DNA from: Sympetrum striolatum
Lineage: Eukaryota > Arthropoda > Insecta > Odonata > Libellulidae
Reading direction: 5' to 3'
Length of the DNA: 64,000 bases
NCBI GenBank assembly: GCA_947579665.1
Contig: OX388350.1
Span: 88,865,152 to 88,929,151, forward strand
Under the pieces are notes generated by a model. The model had not been told where the DNA came from. It ran no database searches and saw nothing but the letters and a program-made list of their open reading frames with translations. The position numbers and the translations under genes were made by a program. This document shows positions 17,186 to 59,298 of this stretch, piece after piece; within the stretch, counting starts at the first letter, position 1; each line of letters starts with the position of its first letter.

Positions 17186-17342
17186 GGAAAAAACGGACTT
17201 TAAAAAAGTCTGACGGGGCCGTAAATCGACACAACCCTTGCTCACGAAGTCCCCAAAATGCTTTTTAAAATGTTCTGGCCGCTTAGATGGTTCCCGGGTT
17301 CGATTCCCGGCCCCGTCAGACTTTTTCAAGTCCGTTTTTCCT
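17186..17342 (+). repeat. tRNA-derived SINE with an inverted tail copy
   Basis: The core at 17250-17342 shares ACGAAGT-CCCAAA, AATGTTCTGG and the tail CAGACTTTTTCAAGTCCGTT with the sequence at 62860-63012. It carries an intact B box GGTTCGATTCC at 17297-17307 but lacks the A-box region kept in the other copy. The tail segment 17309-17341 is repeated as its reverse complement at 17186-17220, so the locus folds into a hairpin with about 33-bp arms and an 88-nt loop. Confidence 0.7.
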
Positions 17343-17814
17343 TTGGAATTTTCCTCTTATATGCAAAGTTACCTCAACCCTTTCACTAATCAGTTTGCTA
17401 AAATGAAAATTCGCGAAGTCGTAATTTGAAACTGAGACAGCGAAATCTACAAAGATAGTACAGTGCAAAGTAAAATTATAAATACCCAAACTTAATTAAT
17501 TAGTTCACTAAGTTATTAAGCACTGCATTCACTCTGGAAATCGAAAATTTTTCGATCGTAGAAACGAATAGCGAAACAAACGCGTTGATAAGTGGGTATC
17601 ACCCGAAACTGGCCTTAGGTTCGTTGAGGCCCACGCATGCAAGGCTGCGATAGGGCATTATGTACTAAATACCCGCCATATATTACTTATTTTTCGCCAC
17701 AGTTCCTTTGCATTTAATGTACTTGCTGCATTACTAAACGACAATTTTTGCTACAAAACGACGGGACATGTTTTAACTATTAACTAAAAATGTTGTATCT
17801 ATTTTTAATATATA
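17343..17814. other. No recognised feature
   Basis: AT-rich sequence leading to the B-box array. Nothing recognised. Confidence 0.4.
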
Positions 17815-17968
17815 TTATTCCTTCTCCGGATTCACTCATATGTATTCATATATATATATCTATCTATTATATATAGATGCTTCTCCGGATTCATTCATGG
17901 ATATACCTATCTATTATATATAGATGCTTCTCCGGATTCATTCATATATATACCTATATAGATAGATA

Positions 17969-19071
17969 GGATACAAATTCACAGCCTAAACTACAAGCGT
18001 CATTGATCTGAAATTTTTATGACATATTGGCCATAACGTGAAACCCCCAGGAAAAAAGAGACTTTGATCCTCAGTGTCATAGGTTCGATTCCAGAGGGCC
18101 CCAAAGTCCCGATTTTTCCCGTTTGAATGCATTGCCGTGATTTTCGGGAATTAAAAAAAAATACTTTCCGGATAGGTAGAGAAGTAAAACTCAAGGTGCC
18201 TATATTTATGGTCTTGGACTTTCGAAAACATCAATCACTTTTACAAAAGTTATCCTGGGTTCGATGCTAGGACGATGCAAAGATCTGCCCTTTAAAATAC
18301 ATGGGAGCCGTTTTTCATTATTTTTTTAGATGCACTTATCGAAATGATAGGATGTTCGTGCTTGGCTGGAAGATGTATGGTACGAATAAGTTTTAGAAAA
18401 AAATTTTCATAAGACCGTACTGTTCCTGGGTTCGAAGCCAGAGCACAATAACGTTTCTCTCATAAGGAATATAAAGGAAAAGTAGGACGTCATTTGAGGC
18501 AGTTGTAACCAATATTTCTGCTTGAATTTGCATACGCGGTTAGAGATGGTGTTTTTCTTTTGTGCTGCATAGAAAGTATTGCCTGAAAGACCCGGGTTCG
18601 ATGCCGGGCGGTAAAAATATCACCCATATATAATACTATGGGGTATCTTTTCATAATTTTTTTATGCATTTATCGATATGTAAGGGAGCTCTTGCTTAGA
18701 TGGAAGATGTATATTAACACTTTGTTTAAGAAAAAAAATAGATAAGACCATGCTGTTCCTGGGTTCAATGCCAGAGCACATTATAATTTCTCAAATAAGG
18801 AGTGTATGTGAATAGTAGGACGTCGTTTGAGGTAGTTGCACCTAATAGTTTTGCTTGAATTTTCACACATAGTTTGATATGGTAATTTTCTATTTTGCTG
18901 CATAGTAAGTACACCAGGAAGACCGGGGTTCGCTGCCAGGTGATTAAATTGCAGCGAATTCTACGAATATTTTGAATTTTTTTTTTCTTTTGATGTCCGT
19001 CCCGATATGATGCCGATATGAAATTAGTGTTGTCGATCTGCTTGCAGTATGCAAGCTACATTTTACTCGTA
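17969..19071 (+). repeat. Array unit 1 (class II, + orientation)
   Basis: Length 1103 bp. B-box cores start at 18082 (F), 18258 (E), 18429 (G), 18595 (A'), 18762 (G) and 18927 (A), with spacings of 176, 171, 166, 167 and 165. The unit ends with the hairpin terminus at about 19040-19071. Confidence 0.85.
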
Positions 19072-19128
19072 TCTATTATATATAGATGCTTCTCCGGATT
19101 CATTCATATATCATATATATATATAGAG

Positions 19129-20236
19129 AGGATACAAATTCACAGGCTAAACCACAAGCGTCATTGACTTGAAATTTTTACGACGTATTGGCCATAACGT
19201 GTAACCTCCAGAAAAATTGCGACTTTGAACCTCAGTGTCATGGGTTCGATTCCAGAGGGGCCCAAAGTCCCAATTTTTTCCATTTAAATGCATTGCTCAT
19301 ATTTTCAGGAATTTTAAAAAAATACTTCCCGGATAGGTAGAGAATTAAAACTCTAGGAGCCTATATATATAGTTAAGATCTATCGAAAACATAAATGACT
19401 TTTACGGAAAATATCCTGGGTTCGATGCTAGGACGATGCAAATATCTGCCCTTTAAAATACATGGGAGTACTTTTTCATTATTTTTTTGACGCACTTATC
19501 AAAATGATAGGAAGTTCGTGCTTAGCTGGAAGATATACGGTAAGAGTTAGTTTTAGAAAAAAAATTTCATAAGCCCGTTTTATTCCTGGGTTCGATGCCA
19601 GAGCACAATAACTTTTATCTCATAAGGAATACAAGGGAAAAGTAGGACGTCGTTTGAGGCAGTTAAAAGCAATATTTCTGCTTGGATTTGCATATGTAGT
19701 TAGAGATGGTGATTTTCAGTTGTGCTGCATAGAAAGTATTGCCAAAAAGACCCGGGTTCGATGCAGGGTGGTAAATATATCCCCCATATATAATACATTG
19801 GGGTAACATTTCATAATTTTTTTATGCATTTATCGATACGATTCGTAGTTCTTTCTCACATAGAAGATGTATATTAAGATTTACTTTATGAAAATAAAAT
19901 AGATAGGACCATACTGTTACTGAGTTCGATGGCAGAGCACATAAACTTTTCTCTCATCAAGAATATAAGGGAAAAGTAGAACGTCGTTTTAGGCAGTTGC
20001 AGATAATATTTCTGCTTGAATTTTCACGGATAGTTAGAGATGGTGAACTTATAATGTGCTGCATAGTAAGTATCACCAGGAAGACCCGGGTTCGATGCCG
20101 GACGAATAAAATGCAGCGAATAATCAGAATATTTTCAATCCATTTATTTTTCTTTTGACGGCCTTCCCGATATGATGCCGACATGAAATTAGTGTTGTCG
20201 ATCTGCTTGCAGTATGCAAGCTACATTTTACTCGTA
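19129..20236 (+). repeat. Array unit 2 (class II, + orientation)
   Basis: Length 1108 bp. Cores start at 19243, 19419, 19589, 19755, 19923 (degenerate, AGTTCGATGGC) and 20089, with spacings of 176, 170, 166, 168 and 166. Order and termini are as in unit 1. A (GATA)n tract follows. Confidence 0.85.
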
Positions 20237-20258
20237 TAGATAGATAGATAGATAGATA

Positions 20259-21530
20259 GGATACTAATTCACAGCCTAAACCACAAGCGTCATTGACTTG
20301 AAATTTTTACGACGTATTGGCCATAACGTGTAACCGCCAGAAAAATTGCGATTTTGATCCTCAGGGTCATGGGTTTGATTCCAGAGGGCCCCAAAGTCGC
20401 GATTTTCCCCATAAGGATACATGGCGGGGATTTTCGAAAATTTTTTTGGTGCATTTCCCGGGAAAGGAGAGATTTGAAATTCAAGGGATCGCTAGACGAC
20501 GGGCATATCTAAAGGAAACCATAAAGACATCTACGAATATTATCCTTGGTTCGATGCTAGGTCGGGGCAAAAATCGGCCGTTTAAAATGCATTGTGGCAA
20601 TTTTTAAGATATTTTTTGGACCCTTTTCCGATGGCATAGAAACTTGAAATTCGGTATGAGGTTAGATACTATAAAAATATATCATATTCGAATTTTTTTA
20701 TATTCGCTGATGTTCCTTGGTTCGATCCAAGAGGGGTTTTAATTCCTCAATGCATTTCTTACGGAGATAACGGAAACAAACTTTAGGTACTTCCCGGCAC
20801 GATATCGACTTCAAACTTTGCATATAGAAAGATCAAGTCCATACAAATCAAACAGTGCATTCACAGCTAGCAATGTGTCCTGGGTTCGACACCAGGTGTC
20901 TCTGCAATCAGAAGTTGATCCGATTTTTAGGAATTATTTTAAAACCTTTACCAATAATATAGAAACTTGATATTTGGCATATAGATAGAGATCATAAATA
21001 AATTTCAGAAACATTTTTTAGATTTCCAAGAAATGCATTGAGAAGTGCAAATGGCCCTCTGGGATCGAACCAAGGACCATCAGCGAACATTTAAAATTCA
21101 ATTATGAAATATATTCAACATATATATCCACGTGCCGAGTTTCAAGTATCCATGTTATCGGGAAAGGATCCAAAAAAAATCTTCAAATTCGCCACAATGC
21201 ATTTTAAACGGCCGATTTTTGCCCCGACCTAGCATCGAACCATGGACCATATTCGGCGATGTCTTTTGATTTTAGTTGGATATGCACGGCTTCTAGCGAT
21301 CCCTCGAATTTCAACTCTCTCCTTTTCCGGGAAGTGCCTCAAAAAATGTTTCGAAAATCCCCGCCATGTATTCTTATGGGGAAAATCGCGACTTTAAGGC
21401 CTTCTGGAATCGAACCCATGACACTGAGGTTCAAACCCGCAATTTTTCTGGCGGTTATACGTTATGGCCAATACGTCGTAAAAATTTCAAGTTGATGACG
21501 CTTATAGTTTAGGCTGTGAATTAGTATCCT
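20259..21530. repeat. Array unit 3, foldback unit (F-E-D-C then D-E-F inverted)
   Basis: Plus-oriented cores start at 20372, 20548, 20719 and 20883. The series then flips to minus-oriented cores at 21061, 21231 and 21406. Both outer ends are the same non-hairpin terminus, and no hairpin terminus is present. The switch lies between 20990 and 21040, where module C/B sequence (GATTTCC) joins an inverted D module (AAGAAATGCATTGAG). The unit is a near-palindrome of about 0.55-kb arms. Confidence 0.85.
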
Positions 21531-21580
21531 ATCTATCTATCTATATCCTTGAATGAATCCGGAGAAGCATCTATATTTAA

Positions 21581-22655
21581 TACGAGTAAAATGTAGCTTG
21601 CATACTGCAAGCAGATCGACATCACTAATTTCATGTCGGCATCATATCGGGACGGCCCTAAAAAAAAAAAAGGATTGAAAATATTCTTAAAATTCGCTGA
21701 AATTTTATCGTCTGGCATCAAACCCGGGTCTTCCTTGTGAACCTACTATAAAGCACAATAGAAGATCACCATCTCTAACTATGTGTGAAAATTCAAGCAG
21801 AAATATTGGCTACAACTGCCTCAAAAGACGTTCTAATTTTCACGAATGTAAATGGCTCTCGGGACTCGAACCAAGGACGATCTTGGAAATCTAAAATATT
21901 TTACTGAAAGTTATTAATGGACTCTATCTATATGCCGAATTTCAAGTTTCTATATTATTGGGAAAGGTTTCAAATTAATTCCTAAAAATCGGATCAACTT
22001 CTGATTGCAGAGACACCTGGTGTCGAACCCAGGACATATTGATAGCTGTGAATGCACTGTTTGATTTGTATGGACTTGATCTTTCTATATGCAAAGTTTG
22101 AAGTCGATAACATGCCGGGAAGTACTTAAATTTTGTTTCCGTTATCTCCGTAAGAAATGCATTGAGAAGTGCAAATGGCCCTCTGGGATCGAACCAAGGA
22201 CCATCAGCGAATATGTAAAATTCAATTATGAAATATATCCAACATATATATACACGTGCCGAGTTTCAAGTATCCATGTTATCGGGAAAGGATCCAAAAA
22301 AAATCTTCAAATTCGCCACAATGCATTTTAAACGGCCGATTTTTGCCTCGACCTAGCATCGAACCCAGGATATTTTCCGTAAAACTCATTTATGCTTTCG
22401 ATAGATCATGACCATATATATAGGTCCCTTGAGTTTTGATTCTCTACCTATCCCGAAAGTATTTTATAAAAAATCCCGAAAATCAAAGCAATGCATTTAA
22501 ACGGGAAAAATCGGGACTTTGAGGCCCTCTGGAATCGAACCCATGACACTGAGGTTCGAAATCGCAACTTTTCTGGCGGTTGTACGTTATGGCCAATACG
22601 TGGTAAAAATTTCGAGTCAATGACGCCAGTAGTTTAGCCTGTGAATTAGTATCCT
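21581..22655 (-). repeat. Array unit 4 (class I, minus orientation)
   Basis: Length 1075 bp. Inverted cores start at 21714 (A), 21862 (B), 22019 (C), 22185 (D), 22355 (E) and 22531 (F), with spacings of 148, 157, 166, 170 and 176. The hairpin terminus starts at 21581. Confidence 0.88.
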
Positions 22656-22718
22656 ATCTGGGTATATCATGAGTGAATCCGGAGAAGCATCTATATATAA
22701 TAGATATATATATATATA

Positions 22719-23797
22719 TACGAGTAAAATGTAGCTTGCATACTGCAAGCAGATCGACAACACTAATTTCATCTCGGCATCATATCGGGACGGTCCTCAA
22801 AAGAAAAAAAAGGGGATTGAAAATATTCTTTAAATTCGCTGCAAGTTATTCGTCCGGCATCGAACCCGGGTCTTTTTGGTGATACACACTATGCAGCACA
22901 ATAGAATTTCTCCATCTCTAATTATGTGTGAAAATTAAAGCAAAAATATTGGGCGCAGCTGCCTCAAAAGACGCTTTAATGTTCACGAATGTAAATGGCT
23001 CTCGGGACTCGAACCAAGGACGATCGTGGAAATTTAAAAAATGTTTCTGAAAGTTATTAATGATCTCAATCCATAAGCCAAATTTCAAGTTTCTATATTA
23101 TTGGGAAAGGTTTCAAAATAATTCCTAAAAATCGGATCAACTTCTGATTGCAGAGACACCTGGTGTCGAACCCAGGACACATTGATAGCTATGAATGCAT
23201 AGTTTGATTTGTGAAGACTGGTTCTTCTATCACGCTAAGTTTTAAGTCGATAGCATGCCGGGAAGTACCTATAATTTGTTTCCGTTATCTCCGTAAGAAA
23301 TGCATTGAGGAATTTAAATGGCCCTCTGGGATCGAACCAAGGACCATCAGCGAATATGTAAAATTTGATTATGAAATATATTTATAATCTCCAACTCCAT
23401 GCCGAATTTCAAGTTTCCATGACATCGGGAAGGGGTCCAAAAAAAATCTTAAAAATCGCCACAATACATTTTAAACGGCCGATTTTTGCCTCAACCTAGC
23501 ATCGAACCCAGGATATTCTCCGTAAAACTCATTTATGTTTTCGATAGTTGATGACCATATATAAAGGTTCCTAGAGTTCCGATTCTCTACCTATCTGGGA
23601 AGTATTTTTTAAAAATTCCCGAAAATCTAAGCAATGCATTTAAACGGGAAAAATCGGGACTTTGGGGCCCTCTGGAATCAAACCCATGACACCTAGGTTC
23701 AAAATCGCAATTTTTCTGGAGGTTATACGTTATGGCCAATATGTCGTAAAAATTTCAAGCCATTGACGCTAGTGGTTTGGCCTGTGACTTTGTATCC
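22719..23797 (-). repeat. Array unit 5 (class I, minus orientation)
   Basis: Length 1079 bp. Cores start at 22857, 23005, 23162, 23328, 23499 and 23674, with spacings of 148, 157, 166, 171 and 175. It is separated from unit 4 by the shared spacer and a (TA)n run. Confidence 0.88.
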
Positions 23798-23860
23798 TCT
23801 CTATATATATATATATATATATGATATATGAATGAATCCGGAGAAGCATCTATATATAAT

Positions 23861-23948
<88 letters not shown>

Positions 23949-23964
23949 ATATATATATATATAT
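23798..23964. repeat. (TA)n microsatellite with array spacer
   Basis: A long TA tract with one embedded copy of the GAATCCGGAGAAGCATC spacer near 23834. Open frames of alternating Tyr/Ile on both strands are artefacts of this tract. Confidence 0.95.
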
Positions 23965-25621
23965 ATCATCATCATCATCATCATCAGCCATTTTCAATCC
24001 GACGTCGGATGTAGGCCTCCCCAAGTACTTTCCAATTTTCTCTGTCCTGAGCTTCTCGTTGCCACGTTACACCTAAGTACTTGATGATGTCTCTGTTCCA
24101 CCTGTCCATAGGTCGTCTTCTTGGTCTCTTCACATCTCTTGGTATCCAGTTGAGAACTGCAGATGTCCAACGGTTGTCGTTTCTTCTTGCAATATGGCCT
24201 TCCCACCTCCATTTCAGTGATCTTACCTTATCTATTATGTCTGTAACTCCAGTCATCATTCTCACCCAAGTGTTTCGTTTCCTGTCTCTTCTTGTGATTC
24301 CCAGCATGCAGCGCTCCATGCTCCTTTGCGTTGTCTGAAGTCTCTGGGTTATTGCAGCATTTAACACCCAAGTTTCACTTCCATAGGTCAAGACAGGTAA
24401 AATGCATTGGTTGAAGACCTTCCTCTTCAAAACCATTGGCATTCTTGACTTCAGAATGTGTGAGTTCCTTCCAAATGCGCTCCAGCCAAGTTTCATTCTT
24501 CTGTTTACTTCATTAATCCTGTTTTTCTCTCCTGTTGTTACAAGTTGTCCCAGGTATGTGTATTCCAAGCAAACATCCAGAGGTTTTCCTTGAAGTTTGA
24601 CTGGCTCTTGCACTGTAAAAGAATTATACATTACCTTTGTTTTTGTTAGGTTTATCCTGAGTCCTATCTTCTGTCCTGCTGTGTTTAGCTCTTCAAGTCT
24701 TGAAGTTAGATCTTCTGCGTTAGCTGCAAAGAGAACTATATCATCTGCAAAACGGAGGTGACTGATGTACTCCCCATTTACTCTTAACCCCTTCTCTTCC
24801 CAATCAAGGGTTTTAAAAACTTCTTCTACAATGGCTGTGAACAAGATGGGAGACAGACCGTCACCTTGTCGAACTCCCTTCTCAATCTTGAATTCATCGG
24901 TCTCTTCATGAAGCATTACAGAAGCTGTGGCATTCTCGTAGACACTGCGCAAGAGGCGGATGTACTCAGAATCTATCCCTTGATTCTTTAGAGCTTTCAG
25001 AGTGGAGGAGGTACTTACCGAGTCGAAGGCCTGTTCATAATCTACAAAGCAAAGGACGAGTGGCATCTCGTATTCATTCGTTCTGTTTATAATTTCCTGT
25101 AATGTGTGGATGTGGTCCATAGTGCTGAAGCCTTTCCGGAATCCCGCTTGTTCTCTAGGCTGGGCTGAAGACAGGGTCATCTTAAGACGTTCCGCTATTA
25201 TCCTCATGAATGTTTTGTAGACAACTGGAAGGAGGCTAATGGGGCGATAGTTCTTCAAATCTTCTTTGCTTCCTTTCTTGTGCAGAAGGGCAATCCTTGC
25301 GTGGTTCCATTCCTTGGGAATCATTCCTTGTTTTAGACAATTACTGAATAATTGTGCTAAAACATTAGCAATCTCTGTTCCACCAGCTTTCAGATATTCC
25401 GCCAACACCCCATCTGCTCCTCCTGCTTTCCCATTCTTCATCTGCTTAATCGCCGCCATTACTTCTTCTGGGAGGATTGAGAGAAGATTTTGTGAGCTTT
25501 GGCTTTCATCTTGGTTCTCCTCTTCGGCGTTTCCTATCTTCTTGTATAGGTTGCCAAAGTATTCTGCTACAATCCTCAATATTGCTGGTCTGTTATATGT
25601 TGTGGTGCCATCTCCTTTCTG

Positions 25622-25624
<3 letters not shown>
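23965..25624 (-). mobile_element. RTE-like LINE, 5'-truncated, RT ORF open
   Basis: On the minus strand an uninterrupted frame of about 545 codons runs from 25624 to the TGA at 23986-23984. In order it contains a linker ending PEEVMAAIKQMKNGKAGGADG, palm/finger motifs (KNYRPISLLPVVYKTFMRII, AGFRKGFSTMDHIHTL), motif A LVLCFVDYEQAFDSVS, motif B GVRQGDGLSPILF, motif C HLRFADDIVLFA, then LRINLTKTKVM and YLGQLVTTG. It ends with a long basic C-terminus containing WRWEGHIARRNDNRW. The N-terminal endonuclease is missing. The stop codon sits at the start of a (TGA)n tail, so there is almost no 3' UTR, as in RTE-clade elements. Both flanks are (TA)n, hiding any target duplication. An open frame suggests a recent insertion. 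It interrupts the B-box array between units 5 and 6. Confidence 0.9.

Positions 25625-25689
<65 letters not shown>
25625..25689. repeat. (TA)n(CA)n microsatellite
   Basis: The continuation of the tract into which the LINE inserted, ending in a short CACACACACA run just before the hairpin terminus of unit 6. Confidence 0.9.
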
Positions 25690-25691
<2 letters not shown>

Positions 25692-26960
25692 GAGTAAAAT
25701 AATGCTTGCATTCTGCAAGCATATTAATGATACAAATTTCAAGAGATTATCACATCAAGAAGGCCCACAACAGGAAAAAAGGGGATTGAAAATTTTCTCC
25801 CAAATCGTTGTATTTTATTTTAAATGGTAGAAATTTGCACCAACCTGGCGTCAAACCCACGCAAATTTGGTGACAGTTTTATAGATGTAATTAAATAAGA
25901 GTGGGTTTACTGGGACCTCTATAATTTTGCATTCCCTATCATACAGAGATGTACCTGAAAAAATTTTCGAAACTGGGACATTAGTAATTTGAAATTCCCG
26001 CCTTACGTTCCAAAGACGCCTGCTGTTGAACTCACGATCTTTTGGATGATGTGTATAACTCCCTGATAAAAATAAAATTCATTTAATTCAAATTTTAAAG
26101 TCGATATCTTACCGGGAAGATCCTAAAATACGACTTTGTTATTCACATATAATAGGGTAATGTAAATGGCTCTCTGGGATCGAACCGAGGACCATCAGCG
26201 AAAACTTAAAGAGCACATATGAAATTAATTTATTATCTCTATTCATATGCCGGGTTTAAAGATTCCATGTCACCGGGAGAGGGTTCTAAATCTTAAAAAT
26301 AGGAGAAATTTCTAATTTTAGAGACGCCTGGTGTCGAACGCAGGCCCAATTGGCAGACGCGAATAAATATTATAACTTGATCTTATTTAATGCAAAGTTT
26401 GCAGTCGATATCATGCCGGGAAGTGTGTACCTAAAATTGGATCCGTTATCTCCGCAAGAAATGCAATTACGAATGTAAATAACTCACTGAGATCGAACCA
26501 AGGACCATCATCGGAACGATCGACAACGTACATAAAATATATCCATGATATCTATCCACATGCCGAGTTTCAGGTTTCCATCTTATCGGGAAAGTGTGAA
26601 AACAATATCATAAAAATAGTCCCAATGTATTTTATATGGGAGATATTTGCCCTGACCTAGAGTCGAACCAAGGATAATCCTCGAGGAGGTCTTTATAGTT
26701 TTCGTCGGAAATGCAGGTTTTCTAGCGAGCCCTCGAATTTCAACTCTCTATTTTGCCAAGAAGTGCCTCAAAATAATTCTCGAAAATCCCCACAATGTAA
26801 CTCTATGGAGAGAATCTGGACTTTGGGGCCTTCTGGAATCGAACCCATGACACTGAGGTTCAAAATCGCCTTTTTTCTGGTGGTTACACCTAATGGCTAG
26901 TGCATCGTAAAAATTTCAAGTCAGTGACACTTGTGGAACATGGTTAGAATTTTGATCCCC
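25690..26960 (-). repeat. Array unit 6, seven-box variant (minus orientation)
   Basis: Length 1271 bp. Cores start at 25847, 26024 (degenerate, CTGTTGAACTC, a C-type module), 26176 (D), 26330 (C), 26489 (D), 26659 (E) and 26835 (F). The C and D modules appear twice, consistent with a duplication of a C-D pair and loss of B. Sequence divergence is higher than in units 4, 5, 7 and 8. Confidence 0.8.
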
Positions 26961-26996
26961 TATGAATGAGTGAGTGAATGAATGTCTATATATATA

Positions 26997-28070
26997 TACG
27001 AGTAAAATGTAGCTTGCATACTGCAAGCAGATCGGCAATACTAATTTCCTATCGGCATCATATCGGGACGGTCCTCAAAAGAAAAAAAAAGATTGAAATT
27101 TTTCTTAAAATTCGCTGAAATTTCATCGTCTGGCATCGAACCTGGGTCTTACTGGTGAACTTACTGTGCAGCACAATAGAAGATCACCATCTCTAACTAT
27201 GTGTGAAAATTCGAACGGAAATATTGGCTACAACTGCCTCAAAAGATGTTCTAATTTTCACGATTGTAAATGGCTTTCGGGACTCGAACCAAGGACGATC
27301 TTGGAAATCTAAAAGATGTTTCTGAAAGTTATTTATGATCTCTATCTATATGCAGAATTTCAAGTTTCTATATTATTGGAAAAGGTTTCAAAATAATTCC
27401 TAAATGTAGGATCAACTTCTGATTGCAGAGACACCTGGTGTCGAACCCAGGACATATTGTAAGCTGTGAATGCACAGTTTGATTTATAAAGACTTGCTTT
27501 TTTATCATGCAAAGTTTGAAGTCGATAGAATGCCGGGAAGTACCTAAATTTTGTTTCCGTTATCTCCGTAAGAAATGTATTGAGAAGTGCAAATGGCCCT
27601 CTGGGATCGAACCAAGGACCACCAGCGAGTTCTTAAATTTTATTATAAAATATATTTATGATATATATCCACGTGCCAAGTTTCAAGTTTCCAAGTCATC
27701 TGTAAGTAATTAAAAAAAATCTTAAAGATCGCTATGTAAATTAAATGGGAGAATATTTGCCCTAGCCTAGCATCGAACCAAGGATAATAATTGTAGATGT
27801 CTTTGTGGTTTCCTTTAGATATACACGGCATCTAGCGATCCCTCGAATTTCAACACTCTCCTTTTCCGGGAAGTGCCTCAAAAAAATTTTCGAAAATCCC
27901 CGCCATGTAATCTTATGGGGAAAATCGCGACTTTGGGGCCTTCTGGAATCGAACCCATGACACCGAGGTTCAAAGTCGGCTTTTTCCTGGAGGTTACACG
28001 TCATGGCCATAACGTCGTAAAAATTTCAAGTCGGTGGCACTTGTGGAACATAGTTAGAATTTTGATCCCC
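26997..28070 (-). repeat. Array unit 7 (class I, minus orientation)
   Basis: Length 1074 bp. Cores start at 27132, 27280, 27437, 27603, 27769 and 27945, with spacings of 148, 157, 166, 166 and 176. The non-hairpin terminus is the diverged form ending in GTTAGAATTTTGATCCCCTA. Confidence 0.88.
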
Positions 28071-28121
28071 TATGAATGTATATATATATAGGTATATCCG
28101 GAGAAGCGTCTATATATAATA

Positions 28122-29200
28122 GACGAGTAAAATGTAGCTTGCATACTACAAGCAGATAGACAACACTAATTTCACGTCGGCATCCTATCGGGACGGTCCT
28201 CAAAAGAAAAAAAATATTGAAAAAATTCTAAAAATTCTCTACAATTGTATCGTCTGGGATCAAACCCGGGTCTTCCTGGTAAAACTCACTACGCAGAACA
28301 ACAGAAGATCACTATCTCTAACTTCGTGTGAAAATTCAAACAGAAATATTGACTGCAACTGCCTCAAACGACGATCTGCTTTTCACAAATGTAAATGGCT
28401 CTCTGGATTCGAACCAAGGACAATCTTGGAAATCTAAAACATGATTTTTAAATTTATCTAAATTTTCTATCTAAATGCGGAATTTCATGTTTCTATATTG
28501 TTGGGAAAGGGTTCAAAATAATTATTGAAAATTGGATCAGTAACTGATTGTAGAGACACCTGGTGTCGAACACAGGACACATTGATAGCTGTGAATGCAC
28601 AGTTTGATTTGTATGGACTTGATCTTTCTTTATGCAAAGTTTGAAGTCGATATCCTGCCGGGAAGTACCTACAATTTGTTTCCGTTATCTCCGTAAGAAA
28701 TGCATTGAGGAATTTAAATGGCCCTCTGGGATCGAACCAAGGACAATCAGCAAATATGTAAAATTCGATAATGAAATATATTTATGACATCTAACCTCAT
28801 GCCGAAATTCAAGTTTCTATGCCATCGGGAAAGGGTCCAAAACAAATCTTAAAAATCGCCACAATGCATTTTAAACGGCCGATTTTTGCCCCGACCTAGC
28901 ATCGAACCATAGACCATATTCGAAGATGTCTTTCTGATTTGCGTTGGAGTTGCACGGCTTCTATCGATCCCTCGAATTTCAACTCTCTACTTTTCCGGGA
29001 AGTGCACGAAAAAAAATTTCGAAAATCCCCGCCATGTATCCTTATGGAGAAAATCGCGACTTTGGGGCCTTCTGGAATCGAACCCATGACACTGAGGTTC
29101 AAAGTCGGCTTTTTCCTGGAGGTTACAGTTTATGGCTAATACGTCGTAAAAATTTCAAGTCAGTGGCACTTGTGGAACATGGTTAGACTTTTGATCCCTA
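28122..29200 (-). repeat. Array unit 8 (class I, minus orientation)
   Basis: Length 1079 bp. Cores start at 28256, 28405, 28562, 28728, 28899 and 29074, with spacings of 149, 157, 166, 171 and 175. Confidence 0.88.
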
Positions 29201-29290
29201 ATGAATGAATGAGTGTATATATATAAGCGTCTATATATAATAGATAGGTACATCCGGAGAAGCGTCTATATATAATAGATATATAATAGG

Positions 29291-30765
29291 TTCGAGTAAA
29301 ATGTAGCTTGCAGTATGCATATTGGTAACACAAATTTCAAGTCGACATCATATCGAGAGGGTCATCAAAAGAAAAAAAGGATTGAAAATATTATCTTGAG
29401 AATTCCGCTGATGGCTGAGAATGAGGAAAGAGGCACAGAATACAGCGAAACGTACATCAGTTGATCTCAATTTTGATGGTGTTTGGAGTATTCTGTGACT
29501 CTTTCCTCATAGAAAGTATTCTTAAAATTCGCTGCAACTGGTCCGTAGGTCGTGGACCCGGGACTTCCCGGTGATACTTACCATGTAACAAAACAGAAGA
29601 TCACCATCTCCAACTATGTATGGAAACTCAAGCGAAAATATTTGCTACAACTGCCTCAAACAACGTCCTACTTTTCCTTTATATTCTTTATGTGAGAAAT
29701 ATTAATGTGCTCGGGCATCGAACCCAGGAACAGCATGGTCTTATCTATTTTTTTTCTTAAACCGAGTATTAATATACATCTTCCAGCAATGCAAAAACTT
29801 CCTATCATTTCGATAAGTGCTTTAATAAAATAATGATAAACTACACCAATGTATTTTAAATGGGAGATTTTTGCATCGTCCTAGCATCGAACCCAGAATA
29901 TTTTCAGTAGAAGTCATTAATGTTTTCGATAGATCATGACTATATCTATAGGCTGCTTGAGTTTTGACTCTCTACCTATCCGGGAAGTATTTTTTAAAAC
30001 TTCCAGAAAATCAAAGCGATGCTTTTAAATGGGAAAAATCATGATTCCTTGAGGCCTTCTGGCATCGAACCCATGACACTGAGGTTCAAAGTCGCCTTTT
30101 TTTGGCGGTTAGACGCTATTTTTCCTTATTGTATGCTATTGTTTGCTTGGTTCGATCCCAGAGGGCCATTAACATTCCACAATGAAAATCTTATGAAGAT
30201 AACGGAAACAAATTTTAGGTACTTCCCGGCATGATATCGACTTCAAACTTTGCAGTAAATAAGATCAAGTCCTAGCAAGTCATTTTGTGCATTTACAGCT
30301 TCCAATACGTCCAGGGTTCGACACCAGGCGTCTCTACAATCAGTCACTGATCCGATTTTTAAGAATTATTTTGAACCCCTTCCCAATAATATTAAAACTT
30401 GAAATTTGGCATATATATAGAACTTATAGATACATTTCGAAAACATATTTTATATTTCCTAGATCGTCCTTGGTTCGAATCCAGAGAGCTATTAACATTC
30501 GTGAAAAGTAGGTCTTCGTTTGAGGCAGTTGCAGCCAATATTTCTTCTTGAATTTTCACACGTATTTAGAGAAGATGATCTTCTGATGTGCTGCATAGAA
30601 ATTTCACCAAAAAGACCCGGGTTCGATGCCAGACGATTAAATTGAAGCGAATTTTAAGAATATTTTCAATCCTTTTTTTCCTTTCCGGGACCGTCCCGAT
30701 ATAATGCCGTTATGAAATTAGTGTTGTCGATCTGCTTGCAGTATGCAAGCTACATTTTACTCGTA
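29291..30765. repeat. Array unit 9, foldback unit with hairpin termini at both ends
   Basis: Minus-oriented cores: one degenerate near 29548, then 29714 (G), 29883 (E) and 30061 (F). These are followed after only 88 bp by plus-oriented cores at 30149 (D), 30315 (C), 30472 (B) and 30620 (A), with spacings of 166, 157 and 148. Both ends carry the hairpin terminus, although the left copy is abbreviated (GCTTGCAGTATGC only). The junction near 30110-30140 fuses a minus half-unit to a plus half-unit, the mirror image of unit 3. Confidence 0.82.
29421..29510. repeat. Small hairpin insertion inside unit 9
   Basis: Arms 29421-29443 and 29488-29510 are reverse complements (ATGAGGAAAGAG-CACAGAATAC, one mismatch). 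Related units are continuous at this place (GATTGAAAATATTCTTAAAATTCG), so about 120-130 bp was inserted here. It is a possible miniature foldback element. Confidence 0.7.
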
Positions 30766-30770
30766 TTAAT

Positions 30771-52196: not shown

Positions 52197-54000
<1,804 letters not shown>

Positions 54001-55103
54001 TACGAGTAAAATGTAGCTTGCATACTGCAAGCAGATCGACAACACTAATTTCATATCGGCATCATATCTGGACGGACATCAAAGGAAAAAAAAATTCAAA
54101 ATATTCGTAGAATTCGCTGCAATTTAATCGCCTGGCAGCGAACCCCGGTCTTCCTGGTGTACTTACTATGCAGCAAAATAGAAGATTACCATATCAAACT
54201 ATGTCAGAAAATTCAAGCAAAACTATTAGGTGCAACTACCTCAAACGACGTCCTACTATTCACATACACTCCTTATTAGAGAAATTATAATGTGCTCTGG
54301 CATCGAACCCAGGAAATGCATGGTCTTATCTATTTTTTTTCTTAAACAAACTGTTAATATACATCTTCCATCTAAGCAAGAGCTCCCTAACATATCGATA
54401 AATGCATAAAAAAATTATGAAAAGATACCCCATAGTATTATATATGGGGGATATTTTTACCGCCCGGCATCGAACCCGGGTCTTTCAGGCAATACTTTCT
54501 ATGCAGCACAACAGAAAAACACCATCTCTAACCGCGTATGCAAATTCAAGCAGAAATATTGGTTACAACTGCCTCAAATGACGTCCTACTTTTCCTTTAT
54601 ATTCCTTATGAGAGAAACGTTATTGTGCTCTGGCTTCGAACCCAGGAACAGTACGGTCTTATGAAAATTTTTTTCTAAAACTTATTTGTACCATACATCT
54701 TCCAGCCAAGCACGAACATCCTATCATTTCGATAAGTGCATCTAAAAAAATAATGAAAAACGGCTCCCATGTATTTTAAAGGGCAGATCTTTGCATCGTC
54801 CTAGCATCGAACCCAGAATAACTTTTGTAAAAGTCATTGATGTTTTCGAAAGTCCAAGACCATAAATATAGGCACCTTGAGTTTTACTTCTCTACATATC
54901 CGGAAAGTATTTTTTTTTAATTCCCAAAAATCACGGCAATGCATTCAAACGGGAAAAATCGGGAATTTGGGGCCCTCTGGAATCGAACCTATGACACTGA
55001 GGATCAAAGTCTCTTTTTTCCTGGGGGTTTCACGTTATGGCCAATATGTCATAAAAATTTCAGATCAATGACGCTTGTAGTTTAGGCTGTGAATTTGTAT
55101 CCT
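54001..55103 (-). repeat. Unit 10 (class II, minus orientation)
   Basis: Length 1103 bp, equal to unit 1. Cores start at 54134, 54299, 54467, 54632, 54803 and 54979, with spacings of 165, 168, 165, 171 and 176. Module order A-G-A'-G-E-F matches units 1 and 2. Confidence 0.87.
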
Positions 55104-55194
55104 ATCTATCTATATAGGTATATATATGAATGAATCCGGAGAAGCATCTATATATAATAGATAGATAGGTATATAGATAGGTATATAGATAGAT

Positions 55195-57349
<2,155 letters not shown>

Positions 57350-57555
57350 ATTTTTTAAAACTTTTATCGTCAAGGGAATGGGTTTGTTTACACATGGAAA
57401 TTTAGTCGAAATTTTCGTATATTTTATCGAAATTCTCGCAATTTCGAATCGAAAACGATATATCTCGACCAAAATAAAAATCTTCATTCTATTTCCCTTC
57501 TTTTGGTGCTCCTTTCGACTCCTTACGACCGTTCTTTCTAATTTAGTTTTAAAAA
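57350..57555. repeat. Dispersed repeat, copy 2 (partner at 7740-7945)
   Basis: Shares block order with 7740-7945, including CAATTTCGAATCGAAA and TTCCCTTCTTTTGGTGCT versus TTCCTTTCTTTTGATGCT. Just downstream, GGGTTCGAACCG at about 57626 is a solitary B-box-like sequence. Confidence 0.6.
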
Positions 57556-59298
57556 AAAAATGAACCCTGGAACGAAAAAAACGAACTTTACGTGTATTTC
57601 TTATGCAAACTATTTTAATCGTCTGGGTTCGAACCGTGGACTTTCGGGAAATTATAACTACCACTTGATCATCCCCGGGAAGACCTTTAATGATGTTATA
57701 AGTTCGAACATTGTGCGACATCTGGTTTTCGAGATTATGTGGAATATACATACACACATACAGGCATTTTTATAGATATATAAGAATAAGATTAAGAGCT
57801 GAGAGCAGTAAATAATACAATATATATGCTTCTTCAAATGAACATAATACAGAAAAACTAAGGCAGATCCTGTAAAAGACAGAAACCTGCTTAAGCCACA
57901 AACATTAATAATATTACTGCACATACACATGGTTTTTGAATAAATCTGCATAACTTGGTTGGAAATCTATAATCCATTAACCTTGCATATGAACAACTAA
58001 CATTCAAACATGTGAATGGCAGAAAAAATTCGCTTGTTTTCACAAGCATTTGCCATTGGCTTAAGCCATTTGCTTCATTACTACGATCATTTGCCATCTC
58101 AAACAAATGAACAATTGGTTAATCCTAATATAATGAATACTAAAAAAACACTCAAACTAGAGGACTTTATTTTGATAGTTGACACTTAAAGTTTCAATAT
58201 GAACTTAGCTTGGCTCTGGTATTCGTCAAACACTGATTCTGCTGATGCATGGTCATCAACATTATCATATCTCAACTCTTAGCAAAGGGTAGGATTGCCT
58301 TCCTAGCAACAGTTCTCTTGATCTTTCCTAACTTTATGGAATCTTTACTGAAGTAATAACCTCAAGACAATATCCTAATGGTAACACCACAAAGCTGGCT
58401 TTCTCCTTGCTGGTACTCAGTAATGGCAAGATGTTTCAATGGAATGAGCTCTCTCAGAAGAAGCAAGTAGAAATTAGTAATCTGAGACTATTTTCTCTAG
58501 CTGCTTATTCTTAGAGCTTCTATTCAGCCTTTTAAGGCATCTTTCCTATTTTTCCCACAAACAGTACTTTTCAAGTAAAACTGATGCATTAACACAATGT
58601 TGCTATGATTGCAATTGGTCATGTGTTTGCAGAGAAGCTTAAAGGAACAACGTTCTTACATATACCATCTTTCTCCAAAAACAATTTAATGGCTCCTTTA
58701 AAGCTAATCCTCATCATCACAAATTCTTAAATGTCCATCAAGTTGAGGTTAAATTTCGATTTTCCAAGTTTAAGCTGATTTTTCACTTTAGATATTGTTA
58801 GAGTACAGACTTTGATAGGATCCAACTGACCTCAGATATTTCTAGATATCTCTCAGCTGTTAACATTACTTAAGCTTGTTTGCTAACTATATCTTGGGGA
58901 AAAAAATCAAGAAGAGCACAGTTAATAAAATATTGAGATAAAACAGAATTACATATTAATAAACAGCCACTAGGAATTAAATTTACAAATATATTGTTTA
59001 AATTAAATTATAGATTTACTATGAATGAAAAAAACTATTGTGAACACTTGTCTACACTGTGATGGGCCATTAGAATTGGAACATCAATTAACAGTCCTCA
59101 TTTGAGTTTGGAAATAATAGGTCCCAAAGACTGAAGTTTTGGAAATGCTGTCATTATGTATTGTCAATTTATTTTAAATTTAAGAGTACAATTTCATAAT
59201 TTTGGTAATATAAGACCAAAGAAGAAATATTTAAAAATGGTTACTTATGTATCAATTACAATGATGCTTAAGAATTAATTTCTTTACTCCTCTTACAG
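57556..59298. other. MFSD6-like intron 3, last part
   Basis: AT-rich intron. No further feature recognised up to the acceptor TCTTACAG at 59298. Confidence 0.5.

Follow-up and report, generated by a model that had tools for sequence, protein, structure and literature searches.

A Helitron-like mobile element built of six modules with a constrained B-box-like motif forms a higher-order array in the odonate Sympetrum striolatum

The mobile elements known to make use of TFIIIC, the factor that binds the internal B box of RNA polymerase III (Pol III) promoters, are either retroelements driven by such promoters or, like Ty3, elements whose insertion sites lie close to tRNA genes. To our knowledge, no role has been described for a strongly constrained internal cis-element in a Helitron-like element. 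Among the closest described systems (for which we draw on parts of the cited papers), the insect Hel-2 Helitrons of Lepidoptera have a 5'-TC, a 5' inverted repeat with a microsatellite downstream, and a 3' hairpin (PMC4344730), and the non-autonomous Helentrons known as HINE have tandem repeats at their centre, along with a microsatellite, a palindrome, and inverted repeats in subterminal position (PMC7492417). With regard to TFIIIC, the CeRep3 clusters of C. elegans are extra-TFIIIC (ETC) sites with A and B boxes, and have been called putative tRNA pseudogenes (PMC6950938). Here, we describe an element of about 1.16 kb found in a 64,000-nucleotide stretch (hereafter, the window) of contig OX388350.1 from Sympetrum striolatum (GCA_947579665.1, positions 88,865,152 to 88,929,151, forward strand), for which a sequence-only reading had reported a 13-kb higher-order repeat with a B box in every module. 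The repeat at 17,8xx-30,77x is real, and the array is a pile-up of copies of this mobile element rather than a local satellite; the dispersed mobile element had escaped that reading. The array is interrupted by a long interspersed element (LINE), uses both strands, includes truncated units, and has two unit types (Table 1).

A profile search found 66 full and 4 partial modules in the window, with 54 full and 4 partial ones inside the array. The earlier figure of about 58 matches, one per module, agrees with this number of modules, whereas the exact 11-mer GGTTCGANNCC occurs only 33 times in 17815-30770, the array modules without it being mostly one base off. In the window as a whole, GGTTCGANNCC occurs 43 times against 0.21 expected from shuffles, which is far above chance, the other copies being placed at 54.2-56.0 kb (eight), 17297, and 57625. 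Modules are 148-176 bp long, and their median spacing of 166 bp is on the scale of a nucleosome. As had been read from the sequence alone, six modules follow one another in a fixed order, with defined unit ends, a microsatellite spacer, and a single orientation for all modules of one unit. Here, the order is 1-2-3-4-5-6 in type Y and 1-2-3x-46-3x-46 in type X, the exceptions being truncated units, and the two types are 61-69% alike. Some of the array units are truncated or lack certain modules, and the orientation of the array switches twice (plus to ~21,031, minus to ~30,121, and plus again to 30,763). In the module tree, the monophyly of classes 1, 2, 3x, 4, 46, 5, and 3+5 is well supported, and the deepest forks are weak. 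A second cluster, made up of a nested pair of units, lies at 53,962-56,267.

A full unit begins with TC after a flanking A, continues with a microsatellite and the six ordered modules, and ends with a hairpin, TACATTTTA, and CTCG before a flanking T. At the right-hand end, 11 window copies align to ...GATCTGCTTGCAGTATGCAAGCTACATTTTACTCG, with the last 30 bases exact in eight of them and the terminal CTCG present in all 11; T follows 10 of these ends and TA follows eight. The 3' hairpin has a 7-bp stem and a 3-base loop, is located 13 bases before the end, and has a predicted energy of -9.3 kcal/mol (ViennaRNA defaults), and so provides the terminal hairpin looked for in a Helitron; the Helitron literature that we draw on gives figures of 16-20 bp and 10-12 bases. 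The left-hand end reads TCTATTATATATAGATGCTTCTCCGGATTCATTC after the flanking A, followed by a CTAT/ATAG microsatellite. With unique flanks, such TCTATT ends are found at 17798 and 53962 in the window and in three loci fetched from elsewhere in the genome (L012, L016, and L030), and thus the element has the 5'-TC of Helitrons.

That such units move is indicated by the recurrence of the same ends between unrelated flanks. In fact, units X18 and X54 are ~36 kb apart and oppositely oriented, and match at 98.2%, with the likeness ending at both termini. Moreover, X54 parts the first 41 bases of Y55 from its remainder, as a nested insertion into the microsatellite of another copy would, and between Y28 and Y27 the terminal CTCG of one unit is joined directly to the TCTATT of the next (28,124/28,123). 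Across the genome searched (1.35 Gb in 544 contigs), we counted 18,835 copies of the exact 30-base 3' end (9,385 forward and 9,450 reverse), a count confined to 30-mers ending in CTCG, while the backwards-read control pattern gave none. At 1.16 kb apiece, this would correspond to an estimated ~22 Mb of element DNA. For unit X, there are at least 41 full or near-full matches at 97-100%, X18 included (40 of 1,088 first-look candidates scored), and for unit Y at least 64 matching pieces (40 of 6,878 candidates scored). Among the first 100 listed 3' ends of one contig (C1), 58 of the 99 gaps do not exceed 3 kb, with 27 of these at 1.0-1.3 kb and 21 at 2.15-2.4 kb, and single ends make up 13 of the 28 clusters. 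Searches of phage and IMG/VR collections and of GTDB contigs gave no match.

We then drew on 36 loci fetched around good matches to unit Y, in which a box-masked module profile gave 1,006 matches; as these loci were taken from the top matches to a single query and include copies of each other (L043 and L044), counts made on them are non-independent. Exactly six modules are found in 137 of the 158 module runs that precede a 3' end. An A precedes 85 of 87 5' ends and a T follows all 156 3' ends, in keeping with insertion between A and T. Five arrays are whole within their locus, and the outer ends are intact, from the flanking A to the flanking T, in L012, L028, and L042, whereas L017 stops inside a module and L018 opens with a stray 5' piece. 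In L012, the array is a solitary unit with unique flanks. Since TA adjoins 152 of the 156 3' ends and 84 of the 87 5' ends, we considered whether the mobile unit might be a foldback or long-terminal-inverted-repeat DNA transposon, represented by the inverted pair at 53,962-56,267 and making TA target duplications. This pair does start with CGAG and end with CTCG, with TA adjoining it on both sides. Yet the lone unit of L012 has asymmetric ends, X54 severs the 5' end that belongs to Y55, and, although TA is found on both sides of L012 and L042, the array of L028, read in element orientation, is bordered by TA at one end and by CA at the other, which a TA duplication does not explain. We consider a foldback transposon highly improbable.

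As for the array being a satellite, it does consist of a multimer of diverged monomers that is repeated as a unit, as satellite higher-order repeats do. Nonetheless, it is not confined to long head-to-tail arrays, as shown by the single unit of L012, by the use of both orientations, and by the spread over many contigs. On a separate note, in the region of L043 and L044 (G000:C8:97062731-97089708), three of the four gaps between good matches measure 5,576-5,578 bp, and about five units seem to have been amplified jointly as a larger repeat.

Within the modules, the box is a selected feature of this very abundant mobile element. Mean identity in the window is 97% over the seven core columns and 58% elsewhere, and of the 11 box columns, the NN of the B box are the two that vary most, in the window as well as in the loci; the earlier reading is supported to the extent that the box is a constrained site resembling a B box. 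Within module classes, mismatches in the core number 12 of 461 (2.6%) versus 14.2% elsewhere, and none of 20,000 random seven-column sets was as low. When the box block is excluded from tree building, a core column takes 1.6 parsimony steps on average, as compared with 7.8 for the others. The last 30 bases of the element differ by 2.15% against 11.2% upstream, a similar level, so that box and terminus are under comparable constraint. With the box-masked profile, exact GGTTCGA was found in 823 of 953 box-spanning locus modules (one mismatch in 120, two in eight, and three in two), while four shuffled heptamers gave 0, 0, 1, and 0 exact matches.

How this constraint relates to copy age can be followed in the 137 six-module units of the loci, whose pairs within divergence bins are non-independent. 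In pairs less than 1% apart, box and remainder are at parity (0.44% and 0.47%; 93 pairs, few changes), and between X18 and X54 one of 42 box bases and 18 of 1,028 others differ, again from few changes. In pairs 1-2% apart, the box differs by 0.31% and the rest by 1.41%, and in those 2-4% apart by 0.81% and 2.99%, giving ratios of 0.22 and 0.27. Between distant units, the rest rises to 34.1% and the NN columns to 49%, whereas the box levels off at 3.5-4.2%. The outcome that the sequence-only reading had named as refuting, a core conserved no better than its module, was therefore not seen in the 36 loci. This plateau fits a decay of copies after insertion during which only those with good boxes found new ones. 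A different possibility is that the host keeps the arrays as a structural satellite or boundary, with boxes selected where they sit. Ordered higher-order modules, nucleosome-scale spacing, and clusters of many units would suit this, and the two low ratios are expected of selection on resident copies too. In contrast, the parity of the closest pairs and of X18 with X54, few as the changes are, speaks against it, as do thousands of dispersed 3' ends and the solitary L012 in unique flanks. We find a host-kept satellite or boundary improbable.

We compared the box with the B box contacts of TFIIIC. Human tau-B is reported to make base-specific contacts with G66, T68, C69, and G70 and, on the other strand, G69, G74, and G75 of a B box spanning 65-75, and binding by yeast TFIIIC to drop 370- and 56-fold on changing the C and the G of TTCGA (both in the part of PMC11811891 used here). 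When 65 is set to the first G, the contacted columns are kept at 98.8, 99.5, 96.1, 97.2, 98.7, and 80.0%, the last value being that of the final C, while the uncontacted 72-73 (NN) are kept at 70.2 and 41.4% (951 rows, preselected for two or fewer mismatches to GGTTCGA, which favours the core). In having the B-box sequence, the modules share this feature with ETC sites. That most modules keep a word recognised by TFIIIC suggests, without amounting to proof, that the spread of the element is helped by this factor. We accordingly put forward the boxes as putative TFIIIC (tau-B) docking sites, selected during the spread of the element and making it a mobile ETC-like array, a reading to which we give a little less than even weight. 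Alternatively, the box may bind the element's own machinery or some other host protein, six times over in the manner of internal transposase or Rep sites, with its B-box likeness being fortuitous. The constraint on the box does resemble that on the 3' terminus, the constrained C and G that flank it reach past a B box, and, to judge by the title of a work cited in PMC7492417, a rearrangement-promoting role has been proposed for conserved boxes in satellite monomers. What this explanation accounts for less readily is that the positions left free and those held fixed are the ones expected from GGTTCGANNCC, with the two NN the least conserved of the 11 columns, and that NN, by our reading, disrupts the dyad symmetry. 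We hold binding by another protein to be a serious possibility, if not one that we favour. A CENP-B box was set aside by eye against its consensus.

In contrast to what had been suggested before, the modules do not look like Pol III transcription units. A perfect A box lies upstream in one of 66 window modules (2.9 in shuffles) and in one of 937 locus modules (35 in shuffles, a contrast inflated by relatedness). In the modules, ARAGORN called no tRNA gene, Rfam gave none at gathering threshold, and no tRNA family covariance model matched up to E = 10. Pairing in T-arm geometry is at control level (3.45 of 5 versus 3.46), and T runs are not above shuffles. A tRNA-derived short interspersed element (SINE) was likewise rejected, there being no consensus A box and no tRNA-related head or fold. 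The corresponding explanation, by which each module would be a Pol III transcription unit or the decayed head of a tRNA-derived SINE, with the box kept in a working internal promoter, gains from the B box sequence itself, from stems around the box that are slightly above control (8-base loop 3.56 of 5 versus 3.50, 6-base loop 3.61 versus 3.53; sd 0.03), and from another element of the window. This is a canonical-looking non-autonomous Helitron (56377-57786, minus strand) with the hairpin CCCGTTGA/TCAACGGG, then CTAG and a flanking T, which has GGTTCGAACC at 57626 and, by reading, a stretch upstream that is like a tRNA D-loop or A box. Its likeness to the modules, however, disappears on masking the 11 bases (E from 0.0002 to 0.46). 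Taken with the missing A boxes and tRNA matches, we judge a Pol III or SINE origin very improbable. The lone modules at 57.6 kb (in this Helitron) and at 53.8 kb were retrieved at E ~1e-4 only with the box unmasked, and we do not claim their homology since the likeness vanishes with the box masked. The latter corresponds to a lone degenerate box-like stretch, TGGGTTTGAATCCAGG, that adjoins the second cluster (53756-53822, minus strand).

In the reading that we propose, copies of a single non-autonomous Helitron-like element of ~1.16 kb make up the array, and this element would be transposed presumably by rolling-circle proteins encoded elsewhere. Its copies would insert into TA-rich DNA, including the microsatellites of other copies, by which both head-to-tail and inverted arrays would arise. 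Matches to the Helitron Rep domain number 93 in this genome, of which 37 fall in open frames of at least 1,000 residues, as against none in 14 control genomes. As proposed, the modules would keep the B box because the element needs tau-B sites for its spread and, owing to the lack of an A box, TFIIIC would bind without bringing Pol III to productive initiation. The element might thus act as a mobile array of ETC-like sites that keeps its own DNA open, or binding might instead place it in the nucleus, or at a time of replication, suited to rolling-circle copying. A number of observations weigh against this proposal. On the side of Helitron-type movement, CTCG does not fit the CTRR of a canonical Helitron 3' end, A instead of T follows one of the 11 window 3' ends, and no subterminal inverted repeat was found in the two copies inspected (the best, of 7 bases in X18, was equalled or beaten in 80 of 200 shuffles). 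Moreover, no autonomous partner with the element's ends was found in the three short stretches read (L045, L046, and 2 kb near one Rep open reading frame, L047). On the side of TFIIIC, box-like constraint is also seen outside the B box, on the C that precedes it by four bases (96%) and the G that follows it by two (98%; L009-L044), and the position at which a B box permits A is G in 924 of 951 rows. The match to a known motif is in part after the fact, and the full GGTTCGANNCC is exact in only 649 of 937 locus modules, a shortfall that stems mostly from a single module class with T in place of the last C. Lastly, box change is already about fourfold lower in the 1-4% bins, which would also fit some selection on resident copies, and the derivation of the 36 loci from a single query bears on the counts made in them.

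More broadly, it is a real possibility, though less likely than not, that a rolling-circle-type transposon evolved a sixfold tau-B array without A boxes as a propagation device and so made a TFIIIC landscape of the genome. With all six retained in most copies, element-borne boxes would be on the order of 100,000 by estimate. Were this the case, such sites might far outnumber tRNA genes, with effects on TFIIIC availability and chromosome folding, and a DNA element retaining, in six copies, just the high-affinity half of a Pol III promoter would uncouple the docking of TFIIIC from transcription, offering a natural test of the chromatin effects of TFIIIC binding alone. Because all degrees of copy divergence are present, selection in the spread phase and decay after insertion should be separable with more data. 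Should the binder differ from TFIIIC, a Helitron-like element would still be shown to carry an internal cis-element under strong constraint.

Coordinates of the features are collected in Table 1. The array is split by a LINE reverse-transcriptase open reading frame that sits in a TA run. This frame is open and has a (TGA)n tail, a 96% identical protein is found on a 4-kb ENA contig (P0001), and the nearest named relatives are in Diaphorina citri and moths. At 17197-17335, there is a small foldback, GACGGGGCCG...CGGCCCCGTC, with a perfect tRNA-type T arm (CCGGG-TTCGATT-CCCGG), in which ARAGORN called no tRNA.

Table 1. Positions of the Helitron-like units and associated features in the window
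Feature	Position	Strand	Remark
Whole array of Helitron-like units	17798..30763	both	9 of 11 window end-A copies here; LINE-interrupted
Unit X18, type X (1-2-3x-46-3x-46)	17910..19069	+	
Unit X19, type X	19072..20234	+	
Type Y unit, cut after module 4, then part of a further module	20240..21031	+	Start approximate
Inverted partial Y unit, modules 3-2-1	21022..21548	-	
Unit Y21, type Y (modules 1-2-3-4-5-46)	21583..22704	-	
Unit Y22, type Y	22721..23863	-	
LINE reverse-transcriptase open reading frame in the TA run of the array, outside the unit	23984..25621	-	
Diverged type Y unit	25691..26969	-	5' edge approximate
Unit Y27, type Y	26999..28123	-	
Unit Y28, type Y	28124..29279	-	3' CTCG abuts 5' TCTATT of Y27, no spacer
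Type X unit, truncated: 2-3x-46 preceded by a piece of module 1	29293..30121	-	
Y unit truncated on its 5' side: a piece of module 3, modules 4-5-46, and the end	30146..30763	+	
5' terminus of unit Y55, severed by nested X54	53962..54002	+	
Unit X54, 98.2% identical to X18, inside the 5' microsatellite of Y55	54003..55165	-	
Remainder of unit Y55, type Y	55166..56267	+	
Example of conserved 3' end: hairpin GCTTGCA-GTA-TGCAAGC, TACATTTTA, CTCG	19025..19069	+	
Example of 5' end: flanking A, TCTATTATATATAGATGCTTCTCCGGATTCATTC, then CTAT/ATAG microsatellite	17910..17944	+	

In one open-access collection, whose text search included the literal string GGTTCGATTCC, the part examined held no work joining Helitrons with TFIIIC or B boxes, and the collection gave none joining TFIIIC with satellites or higher-order repeats, or the B box with satellites and Pol III. 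For Helitrons together with A or B boxes, it returned solely a SINE motif scan, with no link between the two in the part seen, and its matches to the box and hairpin strings were unrelated by title. As compared with the insect non-autonomous Helitrons (Hel-2, PMC4344730; Hel1, PMC6544945), the element shares the 5'-TC, a short 5' inverted repeat, the 5' microsatellite, the 3' hairpin, the A and T flanks, and the lack of visible coding sequence. It differs from them in having CTCG for CTRR and a core in which six diverged modules follow a set order and bear a constrained box, there being no comparable box in the portions of the two descriptions consulted. With HINE (Cg_HINE of the Pacific oyster, PMC7492417, and DINE-1), it has in common the central tandem repeats, a microsatellite in the left flank, and a palindrome in the right flank. 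However, the subterminal inverted repeat of HINE and Helentrons (11-12 bp) was not found here, the order of the six modules is fixed, and the flanks are A and T rather than the TT site described, an A standing before nearly all of the 5' ends. Given that it has no CTRR and that no subterminal inverted repeat was found, we file the element as Helitron-like, a member of neither the Helitrons nor HINE. With tRNA-derived SINEs, it shares the B box, and differs by its hairpin and Helitron-like ends and by having no consensus A box or tRNA fold. Finally, like the ETC sites of CeRep3 (in the part of PMC6950938 used here), it places a B box inside a repeat family that forms dense clusters in cis, but the sites proposed here lack a consensus A box and a tRNA-like fold, and are carried as six boxes in each mobile unit.

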